Source of the DNA: a virus
Length of the DNA: 33,654 nucleotides
IMG/VR virus record: IMGVR_UViG_3300042507_001755
Location: 1 to 33,654 of that record
Direction: 5' to 3' (one strand)
A program made the translations under genes and the position numbers. Positions 25,344 to 33,654 of the stretch are shown in pieces (position 1 is the first letter of the stretch; each line of letters opens with the position of its first letter). The notes under the pieces are model-generated. The model made no database searches, was not told the DNA's origin, and worked only from the letters and a program-made list of their open reading frames with translations.

Positions 25344-25880
25344 CTATTCCTCGAACTCATCTTGGTCGTTCATATCTAACAACTCTCCTTTGCTATGGTC
25401 ATATAACGGAATCTCTGGTACCTCGGAAGCCAATGTGGCTGGAACAGTAAAGCTGTTATCTTTCTGAGTATCGAAGTTTATTATATTCTCATCACCATCG
25501 AGCTGCTTCTGCAAGTTAGGTAATTCCGATGGCTTCACTACGTTCACCGTAATCTGCTTCACCACATCTCCCTCATGTGCCACCTCAGTCTTTTCAATGT
25601 ACCCTCTTCTCTTGCCCTTAGTTTTAAGCAAAAACATGGTGGCCAAAGTATCACCCTTAGTAATCCTCTCCATCAATTTATGCTCCCCCCAGTCTAACAT
25701 AATCTCCTCTGGCTCTATTTCAGCCAAAGCCTTCTTAAACTCAGTATCATTCTTCATCCAATTCTGATACATAGTCCTACTAATCCCACACGCTTGACAA
25801 GCAATCGTAATATTTCCAAAATTCTCCCTATAAGCAATGATAAATGCTTCTTTCGTTATATCCTTAAACTCTGCGTTCAT
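25344..25880 (-). CDS. terS: Terminase small subunit
   Basis: The ATG at 25880 (MNAEFKDITKEAF) is chosen; the open frame extends to a TTG at 25916 inside the upstream gene. Residues about 8-50 form a helix-turn-helix (FIIAYRENFGNITIACQACGISRTMYQNWMK), the DNA recognition part of small terminases that replicate host homeodomain-like folds. A helical oligomerisation region follows (MLDWGEHKLMERITKGDTLATMFLLKTKGKRRGY), and the last 40 residues are acidic, where the large subunit probably binds. At 178 residues it is of normal length. Confidence 0.88.
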   Translation of the reverse strand: MNAEFKDITKEAFIIAYRENFGNITIACQACGISRTMYQNWMKNDTEFKKALAEIEPEEIMLDWGEHKLMERITKGDTLATMFLLKTKGKRRGYIEKTEVAHEGDVVKQITVNVVKPSELPNLQKQLDGDENIINFDTQKDNSFTVPATLASEVPEIPLYDHSKGELLDMNDQDEFEE

Positions 25881-26113: not shown

Positions 26114-26607
26114 TACAAAAGTTAAAATTGGTGAAAACAATGTTTTATATCAAAAATGTGAAGGGCACATCAGCGTTGCACCATTGATTACACGAATAAA
26201 CAAGGTAGGGGGTATAGTGGTATAAATTAACATATATAACACACTGATATTCAATAGTCGAATTGTCTTATAATTACCATTATGTTAAGTAGGTAGCTTA
26301 TTGGTATAGTATTTAGTAAGTATTTATGCATACAATTCATTACTCTGTCATTTGCGGAACATAACACCGACCTACAAAATGAATAGCTACACTATTGGTA
26401 AAGTATGGACAATATAATATAAACTATATTATTTATTTAAGTATATATTATATATTATATTCTATATTATATCTTATATTATATATTATATATTATATAC
26501 TATATATATTGTATAATATATACGGAATGAATAAGCATGGTAAAGATTATATACCAATGGTATGAATTTAGACTGAAAACTATTTTAATATTTTTTTATC
26601 TTTTTTA
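26114..26607. other. Divergent intergenic control region
   Basis: No convincing gene is present in these roughly 490 bases. Copies of an (A)TTGGTA motif occur at about 26299 and 26394 with an inverted copy (TACCAAT) near 26552, which could be operators. A very AT-rich block lies at 26416-26523. The region separates the leftward late promoter from the rightward cassette promoter, so it probably carries control sites for one or both. Confidence 0.5.
26416..26523. repeat. AT-only imperfect TATATTA repeats
   Basis: About 105 bases consist almost only of A and T, built from imperfect TATATTA/TATAATA units in alternating order. This would melt easily and can form cruciform or hairpin structures. 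It may be a DNA-unwinding element or simply a low-complexity spacer created by slippage. Confidence 0.7.
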
Positions 26608-26902: not shown

Positions 26903-28177
26903 ATGGAAAACACAACACAAACAACATTTAGACAATCTATTGCCAATTTGCGCATAATGATTGACTTAATTAACGTATCAATTCGTGAAGGATATTTGCG
27001 AAGGGATTATAAAGAAGATAAGGGAAACAATTACGAAAGTATTGTATTAACTGAATCGGGGTATTATGCATTTAACGACGATTGTATTATTGCAGAAGAT
27101 AGGGTATTTCATGAAATAGAAGATAGGGACGAATATGTATTCGACGAAATAGACGAATGCTATATATGCGAAGGGAATGCGGTATATGTACAAGGACGAA
27201 GAACGGGATTCAATACGCATATTGATAATTGTAACCACCATAACGAAATATATCGTTATGAAGGAGAATATATCAATGGTGCATATATGGATTATAATAA
27301 TTTAGTATTCGATTGCCGTGGTAATATAGGGCATACGGACGACTTATATTATTGGGAATGCGACGGAGAATATCATGATGAACCAGAAGACGAAGAAGAC
27401 GAAGAAGACGAAGACGATTCCGATATGGAATCAGCATTTATAAACTCCTATTCATTCCGTCCATCCATGAAATTTTGCTCATTATCTAATGAGAATTCAA
27501 ATGCGCCATTTTTTGGGATTGAATTAGAAGTAGAAAGGAAAAATAGTAATGGATTAAAGCATAAATACATGGCGGGATTGATTAAGCATGAACATTGGTA
27601 TTTCAAAACTGATGGTAGCTTGACTGATGGATTCGAAATTGTTAGCCATCCAATGACATTTAATTATATCAAGCAAAGTGAAAAGACTTTTGCCGATTCT
27701 TTAAAATTATTAGTCGAAAACGGGTATAATAGTTACGACGCTAATACATGCGGGATGCATATACATATTAGTAAAGCAAATTTTACTACATGGCATTTAT
27801 ATCGATTCCTTAAATTCTTTGTAGAGAATAAAGAATTTATTGTGTCTATTTCACAAAGGAAAATGGAAAAATTGCAAAAATGGGCAAATATAGAAGACGA
27901 AAACGATTCGTCATTAATCTATAAAGCAAAGAAAAAAGACGGAAACGATAAAAGGTATGTCGCAATTAATCTACAGAATAAAGCTACAATTGAAATTCGC
28001 ATATTTAGAGGAACATTAAATTTAAATTCATTCATGAAAAACATTGAATTTGCGCATTCTTTATTCATGTACACAAAAGAGAATAAAGATATTTCATTGG
28101 ATGGATTCAAAATGTACCTTGAATCTTCATGCGACTATTCTAACTTAAAAAAATTCATTAACTTAAAAAACTTATAA
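26903..28177 (+). CDS. Amidoligase-family enzyme with N-terminal Cys-rich region
   Basis: Residues about 200-424 match the Amidoligase_2 (COOH-NH2 ligase, glutamine synthetase-like fold) family. Visible motifs are FGIELEVE at 204-211, KTDGSL then GFEIVSHP at 235-250, CGMHIHIS at 283-290, RYVAIN at 351-356 and IEIRIFRGTLN at 363-373. Family members use ATP to join a carboxyl to an amine, making peptide-like amide bonds. Residues about 85-155 have several Cys/His (CYIC, NCNHH, WECDGEYH) that could bind zinc, and 161-175 is a very acidic linker. Only 3 of 18 Arg codons are AGA here, against 13 of 20 in dnaB, which suggests transfer from another genome. The next gene encodes a class II glutamine amidotransferase. 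Confidence 0.85.
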   Translation: MENTTQTTFRQSIANLRIMIDLINVSIREGYLRRDYKEDKGNNYESIVLTESGYYAFNDDCIIAEDRVFHEIEDRDEYVFDEIDECYICEGNAVYVQGRRTGFNTHIDNCNHHNEIYRYEGEYINGAYMDYNNLVFDCRGNIGHTDDLYYWECDGEYHDEPEDEEDEEDEDDSDMESAFINSYSFRPSMKFCSLSNENSNAPFFGIELEVERKNSNGLKHKYMAGLIKHEHWYFKTDGSLTDGFEIVSHPMTFNYIKQSEKTFADSLKLLVENGYNSYDANTCGMHIHISKANFTTWHLYRFLKFFVENKEFIVSISQRKMEKLQKWANIEDENDSSLIYKAKKKDGNDKRYVAINLQNKATIEIRIFRGTLNLNSFMKNIEFAHSLFMYTKENKDISLDGFKMYLESSCDYSNLKKFINLKNL

Positions 28178-28179
28178 TT

Positions 28180-28914
28180 ATGTGCATAATAGCTATTCAG
28201 CCAATGGGCGTTAAAATTAAAGAATCAACATTGCAAAATTGTTGGAATGCCAATAAAGATGGCGCGGGAATCATGTATGTTGAAAATGGAAAAATTATTG
28301 TCAATAAAGAGATGCATTCATTTAGTGAATTCATGAAACTGAAAAAACATGCCGACAAAGTGAATTCTAATATTGTTATGCATTTTAGAATTGCTACCAG
28401 TGGCGGGGTGAATGATAGGAATTGCCATCCATTTAGAATCAATAATGACCTTTACTTTTGTCACAATGGAATTTTAGATATTGACGTTCCAATGAATTCT
28501 AATATTAACGATACGCAAATTTTCAATAATTCATTTATGAAAGGATTGCCTAATAATTTTGTGCAAAATGATACTATTATGGGATTGCTTGAATATACAA
28601 TAGGCAACCGAAATAAATTCGTTTTCATGGATCATGAAGGCCAATTTTATATCCTCAATGAAAATGCGGGAAAATGGGATAATGGCGCATGGTTTTCTAA
28701 TGAATCATATAAAAAGCAATCTTATACATATTACCCTAAAAAATGGGATTTTTATGGCAAAGAAAAAAAGGACGAATCCTATTCGATTGAAGATGAATTG
28801 GAAATTTGCGAATCATGTAATGAGATGCATTTAATTGACGATATGGTGCATGATAATTATTTTGATATGTTATTATGTTCAAAATGCAGCGAATGGGTGC
28901 TTGAGGAAAAATAA
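28180..28914 (+). CDS. Class II glutamine amidotransferase with C-terminal zinc motif
   Basis: The N-terminus is MCIIAIQ, so Cys2 is exposed as the nucleophile after Met removal. Further family motifs are DGAGIMY at 27-33, MHFRIATSGG at 67-76, HPF at 83-85, CHNGIL at 94-99 and NDTQIF at 110-115. Such domains release ammonia from glutamine for a partner enzyme. Residues 210-236 add Cys-x2-Cys twice, a probable zinc ribbon. The gene follows the amidoligase by 2 bases, so the pair is coexpressed and probably works together, the amidotransferase supplying ammonia or using a gamma-glutamyl substrate. A terminator follows at once. Confidence 0.87.
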   Translation: MCIIAIQPMGVKIKESTLQNCWNANKDGAGIMYVENGKIIVNKEMHSFSEFMKLKKHADKVNSNIVMHFRIATSGGVNDRNCHPFRINNDLYFCHNGILDIDVPMNSNINDTQIFNNSFMKGLPNNFVQNDTIMGLLEYTIGNRNKFVFMDHEGQFYILNENAGKWDNGAWFSNESYKKQSYTYYPKKWDFYGKEKKDESYSIEDELEICESCNEMHLIDDMVHDNYFDMLLCSKCSEWVLEEK

Positions 28915-28936
28915 TTGTGTGTTTTCTTTTGTGTGT

Positions 28937-28966
28937 GCATGGCCTGAAATATGGCCATGCTTTTTT
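28937..28966 (+). terminator. Terminator of the amidoligase cassette
   Basis: GCATGGCC at 28937-28944 pairs perfectly with GGCCATGC at 28953-28960 around an 8-base loop, followed by six T. It closes the cassette and keeps its transcription separate from the early block that starts near 29.4 kb. Confidence 0.92.
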
Positions 28967-28985
28967 AGTTTATGACCTTATCAAT

Positions 28986-29015
28986 AAATAAGCCAAAATA
29001 AGACGAAATAAGACG
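28986..29015. repeat. Three tandem 10-bp repeats (AAATAAGACG)
   Basis: Consecutive copies at 28986, 28996 and 29006 read AAATAAGCCA, AAATAAGACG and AAATAAGACG. The exact 10-bp period places them on one face of the helix, as for a cooperatively bound protein. Confidence 0.75.
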
Positions 29016-29106
29016 ATTAAAATATAAAATAATGGTAATACCTTATAAACATAATAGAAGCCCGTAAAATGGCTAAAAATAGGCAAAGAATTGATTTTTA
29101 CTTGCT

Positions 29107-29144
29107 TGTCATGATATGTCATGTTATGTCAATACTTTATTGAC
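29107..29144. repeat. TGTCAT repeats at 10-bp spacing with inverted arm
   Basis: TGTCAT occurs at 29107 and 29117 and TGTCAA at 29127, all 10 bp apart. The last also pairs with TTGAC at 29140-29144 across 7 bases (GTCAA-N7-TTGAC). This resembles an operator bound by a dimeric or cooperative regulator. Confidence 0.65.
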
Positions 29145-29187
29145 GTTGCAACATTGATTGATATGCAGCTACTTATCAGTTACCCAT

Positions 29188-29303
29188 GCCAAAAACCCGC
29201 CAAAAATCTTCTATAGGTATAGCCAAAAATCCAGCAAAAACTCCCCAAAAATCTGCCAAAAACCCCCTAAAAATCTGTGACAAAAACTTTTTACGGACAA
29301 AAA
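29188..29303. repeat. Phased A5 tracts with an 11-bp repeat unit (bent DNA)
   Basis: A5 runs start at 29191, 29202, 29225, 29236, 29247, 29258, 29269, 29282 and 29299. Most steps are exactly 11 bp and one is 23 (about 2x11). The unit is close to GCCAAAAATCT. A-tracts repeated in phase with the helix are known to curve DNA strongly. They could help open an origin, wrap a control complex, or be iterons for a phage initiator. Confidence 0.85.
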
Positions 29304-29388
29304 TCTTTTACCATTTAACAATAAATTAACTAAAATAAATGAAATTATAACAAAAAACCTTTAATTTTACCAAACTAAACCAAAACAA

Positions 29389-29595
29389 ATGCACCAATTA
29401 ATTACCTTAACCCATGCAATGAAGTGTGCTATTACTGGCATACTCATTGACAAAGGCGAACAAGCCTATTACAATTACGAGACAAAAAACTGCATACATC
29501 CCTTGGAGTATGAGTCAAACATGAGCAAAGCTAAAATAGGAGACCCAAAAACTTATTTCAGCAGATTATCTAAACTAAACACCAAAAATACTTAG
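29389..29595 (+). CDS. Hypothetical protein, first gene of the early block (68 aa)
   Basis: It starts after an A-rich leader (aaaccaaaacaaATG). The product has a short motif (KCAITGILIDKGEQAYYNY) with two Cys and an aromatic-rich middle, then a basic end. I do not recognise a family. As the first gene after the control region it is probably made very early and could act on the host. Confidence 0.62.
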   Translation: MHQLITLTHAMKCAITGILIDKGEQAYYNYETKNCIHPLEYESNMSKAKIGDPKTYFSRLSKLNTKNT

Positions 29596-29941: not shown

Positions 29942-30178
29942 ATGAATCAAAAACTATCCCTTGAACAAAAGAAGAAAGGCATCAAAGAAGAGTTTACTTA
30001 TGTAAACAGCAACGGCAGAATCTCAAAACAATACACCTACAAAGGCATGATTATCAAATGGGATAACATGATACTAAATGGTAAATGGTTTTACTGGAGA
30101 CATAGCTATTACGCCTCACTTGATGCAGCAGTACAAGGAATAGACAGACACTTAAAAATTTATAACAAAAACAAATAA
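29942..30178 (+). CDS. Hypothetical basic protein (78 aa)
   Basis: A Lys-rich N-terminus is followed by a beta-hairpin-like region (FTYVNSNGRISKQYTYKGMIIKW) and WFYWRHSYYASLDAAVQGIDRHL. The aromatic and basic makeup would suit nucleic acid contact. Spacing to both neighbours is 2-4 bases. No family is recognised. Confidence 0.65.
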   Translation: MNQKLSLEQKKKGIKEEFTYVNSNGRISKQYTYKGMIIKWDNMILNGKWFYWRHSYYASLDAAVQGIDRHLKIYNKNK

Positions 30179-30180
30179 AC

Positions 30181-30474
30181 ATGGAAAACCAAGAAGTAGA
30201 ATTAGTAGAAAGAGAATTAACACCTATTTTCCCTTGTGAGTGGTGCTTTAAGTTTGGCGATAATGAGCCACAAGTATTCGCAGCAACTAACGAAAAGATA
30301 GATGGTCAAGAACCAGCTATTAGATTAGTACTTGCTAACACAGAAGAAACAACTGTAACATTCCAGGACGGAGATAAGGCGTTCACATTATTCTGTAGAC
30401 CATTGACAGAAGCAGGACAAGTATTAATTAACCAAAACAACCAACTACAAGATGATTCAAGTAACGGATTATAG
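30181..30474 (+). CDS. Hypothetical acidic early protein (97 aa)
   Basis: The product is acidic with beta-type strands (PAIRLVLANTEETTVTFQDGDKAFTLFC) and a CEWC pair near residues 19-22. Its last 23 bases overlap the next gene. Acidic small early proteins sometimes mimic DNA or block host enzymes; that is only a possibility here. Confidence 0.65.
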   Translation: MENQEVELVERELTPIFPCEWCFKFGDNEPQVFAATNEKIDGQEPAIRLVLANTEETTVTFQDGDKAFTLFCRPLTEAGQVLINQNNQLQDDSSNGL

Positions 30475-30652
30475 AGCAATGCTGAGACATGGAGATATGA
30501 AAAAAATCTGTGCTATCACTGGACTTTCACCATACCTATTAAAGACAAGATTAGAGAAGCACGATTACGAGACAGTTGAGATAGTAAAAACTTACTATGC
30601 CAACAAGTTAAAAGCACTAAAAAACCAAATCAATGACTATAGCGAAATTTAG
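30452..30652 (+). CDS. Small helix-turn-helix-like protein (66 aa)
   Basis: The segment GDMKKICAITGLSPYLLKTRLEKHDYETVEIVKTYYANK (residues about 14-52, quoted as two parts: GDMKKICAITGLSP and YLLKTRLEK) has the helix, tight turn and recognition helix pattern of small DNA-binding proteins. It overlaps both neighbours. It could control early or replication genes. The fold call is by pattern only. Confidence 0.58.
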   Translation: MIQVTDYRAMLRHGDMKKICAITGLSPYLLKTRLEKHDYETVEIVKTYYANKLKALKNQINDYSEI

Positions 30653-31004
30653 AATGCCACGCAAGTCTTTATTAAGTCCTAAGAACTATGAGATAAATCA
30701 ATCTACAGTTGAAAATGTTATGAATAAAGTAGCTACAATATTTGATATAAAAGTAGCAGCTTTAACAAAAAAAGGTAGATATAGAGAGCAAGTATTAGCA
30801 CGAAATATGTGCTTTTATATCCTTCATGTTCATTATAAACAAAAATCTGCTCAAATCGCACCATACTTTAACAGAGATAGGACTACAGTTTTACATGGAA
30901 TAAACACTTGCTTAAATGACCTTGCAGTAGTTCCTTATTACATGGAAAAATTCCAAGCAGTTAAAAGTTTAATTAAGATTCCAAAATTATATTCAGACAA
31001 ATAA
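30633..31004 (+). CDS. Stand-alone DnaA domain IV-like DNA-binding protein
   Basis: Residues about 48-108 match the DnaA C-terminal DNA-binding domain in order: RYREQVLARNMCFYILHVHY (helix with the conserved Arg), then SAQIAPYFNRDRTTVLHGI, close to the DnaA signature DHTTVLHA, then a closing helix. The AAA+ domain is absent; the 123 residues are only this domain plus a basic N-terminus. In DnaA this part binds the origin boxes. Here it may bind the phage control region or compete with host DnaA at its boxes. Confidence 0.82.
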   Translation: MTIAKFRMPRKSLLSPKNYEINQSTVENVMNKVATIFDIKVAALTKKGRYREQVLARNMCFYILHVHYKQKSAQIAPYFNRDRTTVLHGINTCLNDLAVVPYYMEKFQAVKSLIKIPKLYSDK

Positions 31005-33172: not shown

Positions 33173-33654
33173 ATGTCACAATTTTACACAACAATAATTC
33201 ATCCTATAAGGAAGCACTTTAGCTTGTCTTGTAATGACTACTGCGTATTAGATACCATTATGCGTATGCAGAATAATGAATCGCATTGGTGCTATATGTC
33301 TAAAGATACCATGGCAAACGATTTAGACTTATCAAAACAAGCTGTTCTAAACATAATCACTAAGTTAGTAGAGAAAGAACTTATAGTCAAAAATCCAGCC
33401 ACTAAACACTTACGCATTGCGTCAGTATTCTTAGATTATTTAAACGACTACAAAAAGTTTACCGATGGTAAAGAAACTTTACTTGAACGGTCAAAAAACT
33501 TTACCGAAACTGGTAAAAAAACTTTACCTAACAATAATACTAACAATAAGAATACATTTATAAGGCCTACGGCTGAACAAATAAATGAATATTCAAATGA
33601 GATTGGATTTACTTTAGATGGTTCACAATTTATAGACCATTACGAAGCAAGAGG
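33173..33654 (+). CDS. Replication initiator-like protein, N-terminal part (continues at 1)
   Basis: The gene is cut by the window end and resumes at the start, where it ends at 305 (199 residues in the circle). Residues 1-90 show a winged-helix pattern (CNDYCVLDTIMRMQNN, MSKDTMANDLDLSKQAVLNI, LVEKELIVKNPATKHLRI), as in phage replication proteins. Residues about 95-125 are the polar linker encoded by the iterons. The remainder up to 33654 duplicates 1-187. It precedes dnaB, so a lambda O-like role is likely. Confidence 0.82.
   Translation, partial: MSQFYTTIIHPIRKHFSLSCNDYCVLDTIMRMQNNESHWCYMSKDTMANDLDLSKQAVLNIITKLVEKELIVKNPATKHLRIASVFLDYLNDYKKFTDGKETLLERSKNFTETGKKTLPNNNTNNKNTFIRPTAEQINEYSNEIGFTLDGSQFIDHYEAR
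33467..33528. repeat. Iterons inside the initiator gene, right copy
   Basis: The same three 17-bp units as at 1-61 occur here at 33467-33483, 33489-33505 and 33512-33528. A partial arm (AAAGTTTACC) precedes the first unit at about 33455-33464. In the closed circle the two copies are one locus. Confidence 0.65.
33468..33654. repeat. Terminal direct repeat, right copy (circular closure)
   Basis: This copy pairs with 1-187 at a constant offset of 33,467 with four differences and no gaps. Relative to the left copy it carries A at the position matching 128, T at 131, T at 155 and C at 176. Confidence 0.93.

Follow-up and report, generated by a model that had tools for sequence, protein, structure and literature searches.

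An array of head-to-tail CAAAAAYCY-type units upstream of the early genes is a hallmark of a large family of uncultured phages

Does a row of regularly spaced A5 runs preceding the early genes in an uncultured phage genome bend the DNA, or is it a site recognized by a protein, and what might the phage use it for? The original prediction for this locus described a phased A-tract array that bends DNA, suggested that its conserved unit also binds protein, and proposed an origin of replication, an early-promoter enhancer, or a packaging element as its role. Here, we examine these proposals in the window, by which we mean the whole stretch of 33,654 bp analyzed (IMG/VR record IMGVR_UViG_3300042507_001755), and in related loci.

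Layout of the array and its surroundings

The ends of the 33,654-bp contig (1 to 187 and 33468 to 33654) overlap by 187 bp at 97.9% identity inside the rep gene, and because of this overlap, we regard the record as close to a complete, circularly permuted genome with strain variation. Late genes (terminase, portal, and capsid) run leftward from 25.9 kb, and early and replication genes run rightward, starting at 29.4 kb and continuing across the contig end as far as a DnaB-type helicase. We found no DNA-level match to known phage records. The large terminase (TerL) is at most ~37% identical to those of known phages, and since its relatives include Flavobacterium and Bacteroides phages, the host probably belongs to the Bacteroidota. 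Between terS and a pair of accessory genes for an amidoligase and a class II glutamine amidotransferase (26903 to 28914), there is an extremely TA-rich tract (26442 to 26600), which has the lowest stability in the window and lies near the GC-skew minimum.

The array consists of nine head-to-tail CAAAAAYCY-type units on the plus strand (29188 to 29307), within a region free of genes (28915 to 29388) just 5′ of the early genes, as had been predicted. Its A5 runs start at 29191, 29202, 29225, 29236, 29247, 29258, 29269, 29282, and 29299, giving spacings of 11, 23, 11, 11, 11, 11, 13, and 17 bp. Shuffled sequences with dinucleotides preserved (1,000 local and 200 whole-window shuffles) contained at most five A5 runs per 113 bp, compared to nine observed, and at most two A5 pairs at 11 bp, compared to five observed; neither observed value was reached in any shuffle. 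The description of nine A5 runs at mostly 11-bp steps was thus borne out, with five of the eight steps exactly 11 bp. Together with the conservation of the units in 114 distinct related arrays, described below, these data identify the array as a real shared site and not a chance DNA bend.

Several other elements lie nearby. An intrinsic terminator (28937 to 28970, plus strand) follows the upstream accessory operon (amidoligase and GATase). Just upstream of the array is a degenerate copy (29165 to 29183) of an operator-like dyad that reads GCAACT-N7-AGTTGC in relatives; it was present just 5′ of the array in 56 of the 114 relatives, and the rest had other flanks. Its two arms vary alike, and wobble changes are not biased toward either strand; we therefore rejected an RNA hairpin and read the dyad as a DNA element. 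On the other side, an AT-rich stretch (29304 to 29361) separates the array from the sequence TAATTTTAC (29362 to 29370, plus strand), a likely −7 element (TAnnTTTG-like) of the early promoter, judging by its conservation downstream of the array. In a stability ranking, 80-bp stretches starting at 29299 to 29304 were among the least stable 0.8 to 1.2% of the window. Most related loci, including those with gene insertions, have the TAATTTTAC element 3′ of the array, usually with an A5 or A6 run ~10 bp upstream of the element. The first gene of the early operon, encoding 68 amino acids, follows at 29389 to 29595 (plus strand).

Conserved units and the question of bending

Relatives gathered by IMG/VR searches formed a large uncultured phage family, in which 114 distinct arrays could be compared. 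These arrays had 5 to 13 units (median, 8) and a median span of 98 bp, and the spacing of their units varied from 10 to 26 bp. The conserved unit is strand specific and reads C/T-A5(6)-YYY, mostly CAAAAAYCY (in the window, CAAAAA plus three pyrimidines every 11 to 13 bases). Among 422 distinct A5 or A6 runs from the 114 arrays, position −1 was C or T in 421, and positions +1, +2, and +3 were pyrimidines in 421, 420, and 415, respectively. The A run was A5 in 405 and A6 in 52 of 457 distinct units, and none of the 457 was interrupted. Nor have the units been homogenized: for example, CCCTATGC-A5-CTCC keeps the same identity and order across phages whose early proteins are only 30 to 45% identical. 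Even at just 31% identity in the DnaA-like protein and 38% in the early protein at 29942, the array is present.

The expectation that the unit is conserved outside the A run was therefore confirmed, and the suggestion of protein binding gained support, in that conservation past the A run points to sequence-specific recognition. Because distinct units keep their identity and order, have not been homogenized, and never have interrupted A runs, we read the array as a sequence-specific site; on these patterns of conservation, it is likely to be a multisite element that acts as DNA or, less likely, as RNA.

The evidence for bending was of a different kind. In related arrays, steps of 11 and 13 bp dominate and steps of 12 bp are rare. 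The best common period over the 114 distinct arrays was 11.8 bp, with a period power of 4.2, compared to 1.4 at 10.5 bp (random, ~1). In a wedge model, the most curved 115-bp segments of the whole stretch fell in the array, but 53% of the shuffles of its spacer order were predicted to be as curved or more so, and an ideally phased version was far more curved than the real array. The curvature prediction that had been suggested as a check thus placed the array no higher than its own spacer shuffles. Of the “phased” array, the regularity stands, with spacing at 11 or 13 bp, and the tuning to the helix does not; given the family-wide period and the missing curvature excess, we rejected a helix-phased bend. 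Regular spacing of A-tracts need not imply that curvature has been selected.

Distribution across the phage family

All relatives that cover the site carry the units, always in one orientation and flanked by the terminase side and the early operon, and their early proteins range down to 30 to 45% identity. Counting distinct loci that hold TerS plus either early genes or the array, a strict array (at least four units) was found 1.5 to 4.3 kb from TerS, on the early side, in 113 of ~116. The three that fail the strict test (L276, L278, and L284) have units of the same motif, sparse and at wide, irregular spacing. A pattern scan of IMG/VR detected the array almost only in this family. When 84,980 species genomes were scanned for three units at 11-bp spacing, only near-identical tandem repeats (microsatellites) were recovered, and Flavobacterium phages 11b, 1/32, and FpV9 had no such array. 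The same array was not found in hosts, plasmids, or known phages, with low-complexity masking possibly hiding matches in part of these searches. The array is a hallmark of this large uncultured phage family: a cis element present throughout it and hence a landmark by which the family can be recognized.

What lies on either side of the array varies. The upstream flanks fall into several unrelated classes, several of which are present in both main backbone groups. Downstream, genes of 0.3 to 1.8 kb are inserted between the array and the early promoter in many relatives, and the distance from array to promoter ranges from ~10 bp to 1.8 kb. The array is thus autonomous and independent of both flanks, and because inserted genes split it from the downstream parts, neither the promoter distance nor an unwinding element is kept at a fixed place. 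In several unrelated inserted genes (the methylase of L309 and L315 and the genes of L104, L021 and L250, and L121), the start codon comes 10 to 13 bases after the last unit, so the array may be transcribed in those phages. The accessory genes between array and promoter differ and include DNA methylases downstream of or near the array (L309, L315, L005, and L047); the insert in L309 and L315 is a cytosine methylase.

Candidate roles of the array

The units, their strand, the 11- and 13-bp steps, their conservation, and their independence from the flanks are direct observations, and from them we infer which protein might bind and what for. We postulate that the array is a self-contained cis site of head-to-tail C/T-AAAAA-YYY units on which copies of one DNA-binding protein would assemble side by side. 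By analogy with known phages, our tentative first choice is the initiation of packaging: as a pac-like site, the array would be wrapped (~100 bp) around a ring of the small terminase, with each helix-turn-helix (HTH) on one unit, and the large terminase would then cut near the array, where packaging would begin. The candidate binder is TerS (25344 to 25880, minus strand), identified as a small terminase subunit by PHROG and carrying an HTH in its N-terminal half, which is conserved in an alignment. Among the relatives, it is the best-conserved DNA-binding protein (61 to 100% identity, with the N-terminal half largely invariant); identities range from 30 to 99% for the DnaA-like protein and from 45 to 100% for a small HTH protein, and the N-terminal domains of Rep vary or are unrelated. 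Small terminase rings of SPP1/SF6 are ~90 Å in diameter, their HTHs are separated by about one turn of DNA, and they have been proposed to select ~100 bp of bent DNA in which 5 to 7 consecutive A/T pairs lie between GC pairs (PMC4737164). From ring dimensions, we calculate that DNA around the outside of a ring of nine would measure ~102 bp, or 11.3 bp per subunit. Packaging was ranked first because these values fit the median span of 98 bp, the median of eight units, and the 11.8-bp period and because TerS varies least.

The resemblance to the SPP1/SF6 pac region extends to length (~100 bp), A/T runs between GC pairs, and the spacing of about one turn in the HTH ring (PMC4737164), but the units described here are strictly sequence conserved and repeated at 11.8 bp instead of being chosen by bend alone, and they are not at the terS gene. 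Distance is one of several points against packaging. Known pac sites usually lie in or beside terS, and the array is 1.5 to 4.3 kb away, for which reason we do not file it as an SPP1-type pac and suggest only that it may work like one. The ends of related contigs, taken as a trace of packaging ends, scatter, several of them in the TA-rich tract near terS, and form no cluster at the array; this scatter and the 187-bp end overlap are compatible with permuted headful DNA. The variation from 5 to 13 units and from 10 to 26 bp in spacing, with three relatives sparse or irregular, argues against a fixed ring geometry, and the recognition helix of TerS differs at several positions while the unit stays constant. 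The structure model of TerS was poor (pLDDT, 52), and a PDB search with it yielded no significant match, the top one being phBC6A51 (2ao9; E = 0.2).

We also speculate that the array could be an assembly track for a ring protein, either the small terminase or another HTH oligomer, with one 9-bp site per subunit, a spacing set by ring circumference (~11.8 bp) rather than by the helical repeat, and the mobility of a cassette between accessory genes; as a whole, we consider this proposal unlikely. If TerS does bind one unit per subunit, the array would inform the continuing debate over the way in which small terminase rings select viral DNA. It is a ready test piece, since one fragment is enough to probe TerS, the small HTH protein, the DnaA-like protein, and host factors alike.

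An alternative hypothesis, doubtful but next in plausibility to packaging, is that the units are covered by a regulator, of phage or host origin, through which the surrounding promoters are controlled. The array lies before the early promoter element TAATTTTAC and has an operator-like dyad upstream, and a candidate regulator is encoded nearby: a 66-amino-acid protein (30452 to 30652), predicted to form an HTH and a long helix, that was found in 76% of array loci, with many of the other loci truncated. Searches of Pfam, PHROG, and PDB gave no relative of this protein, and its recognition helix varies across the family while the unit is constant. Promoter activation by upstream A-tracts in other systems (PMC2753651) provides a precedent; like phased A-tracts of this kind (e.g., IS5 upstream of glpFK and UP-like A-tracts), the array has multiple A-tracts near a promoter, but its spacing is not phased to the helix and its promoter distance, owing to inserted genes, is anything from ~10 bp to 1.8 kb. 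The proposed role of early-promoter enhancer is therefore doubtful, with 0.3 to 1.8 kb of genes intervening in many relatives and some ATGs only 10 to 13 bases after the last unit. Those same ATGs, with no visible promoter between them and the array, favor a transcribed array that would act as an unstructured, C-rich, G-poor RNA, either as a Rho loading (rut) site or as a translation leader. The composition (26% C and 8% G) and the pyrimidine-C dimers every 11 to 13 nt (steps of 11/13), on the same strand as transcription, resemble the rut descriptor, (YC)N9-13 (PMC9160355), and several early genes have CA5Y 14 to 16 nt 5′ of their ATG. Yet rut sites need no exact A5 run, whereas the array has an invariant A5 and a fixed 9-mer core, with 0 of 457 units interrupted, and its transcription is conjectural. 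The window has a promoter-like element separating the array from the first early gene; 5′ of the array, we detected no conserved promoter, the dyad there shows no RNA-like behavior, and Rfam gave no match. We consider an RNA role distinctly unlikely.

A replication function, with the array as a second origin or initiator-assembly array and its AT-rich neighbor as the unwinding element, seems very unlikely. In its favor, the head-to-tail sites adjoin DNA that ranks within the least stable 1% of the window, and a protein consisting only of DnaA domain IV (30633 to 31004, plus strand; Pfam Bac_DnaA_C, E = 2.8e-15) is encoded family-wide. However, inserted genes part the array from the AT-rich stretch, and the rep gene contains lambda-type iterons of its own: four lambda-O-like copies with the core GGTAAAnAAACTTTACC (33448 to 33530, plus strand), 20 to 23 bp apart and the first degenerate, which are the likely replication origin. 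The lambda O iterons likewise lie in the O gene (PMC7466680). The array shares direct repeats, an AT-rich neighbor, and curved DNA with the lambda ori, but it lies outside rep, has 11- and 13-bp steps instead of ~20-bp iterons, and does not follow the type of Rep. Repeats of another sequence but equal spacing are present in at least one other Rep type, and in some types no repeats stood out; across the family, the N-terminal DNA-binding domains of Rep fall into several unrelated types, with no accompanying change in the array. Because rep carries its own iterons and its domains are swapped without change in the array, we rejected a Rep-dependent origin here, and the proposed origin is unlikely in that sense. 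DnaA boxes were also rejected: the unit logo at wide gaps does not fit, with the pyrimidine triplet 3′ of the A run and none before it, and the only exact TTATNCACA-like box in the window, at 28181, is outside the array. The recognition motif of the DnaA domain IV protein is RDRTT or RDHTT, depending on the family member.

Least probable of all is a by-product without function, in which low-complexity repeats spread by slippage and recombination at a hot spot of accessory-gene insertion. The arrays are mosaic and gene content shifts on both sides, as this would predict, but the A runs are never interrupted and the units are not homogenized, with identity and order kept across phages with early proteins 30 to 45% identical. 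The array also recalls parC, the centromere of plasmid R1 bound by ParR, in being a row of direct repeats near a promoter, and ParR-type complexes wrap DNA as a solenoid (PMC9426499). The repeats of R1 parC are 11 bp, whereas the steps here are 11 and 13 bp, and no partition genes were recognized among the subset of proteins searched.

Several early genes (e.g., those at 30181, 31206, and 31903) also have a run of CA5-6 ~14 to 16 nt ahead of the start codon, where it is perhaps an A-rich translation start signal.
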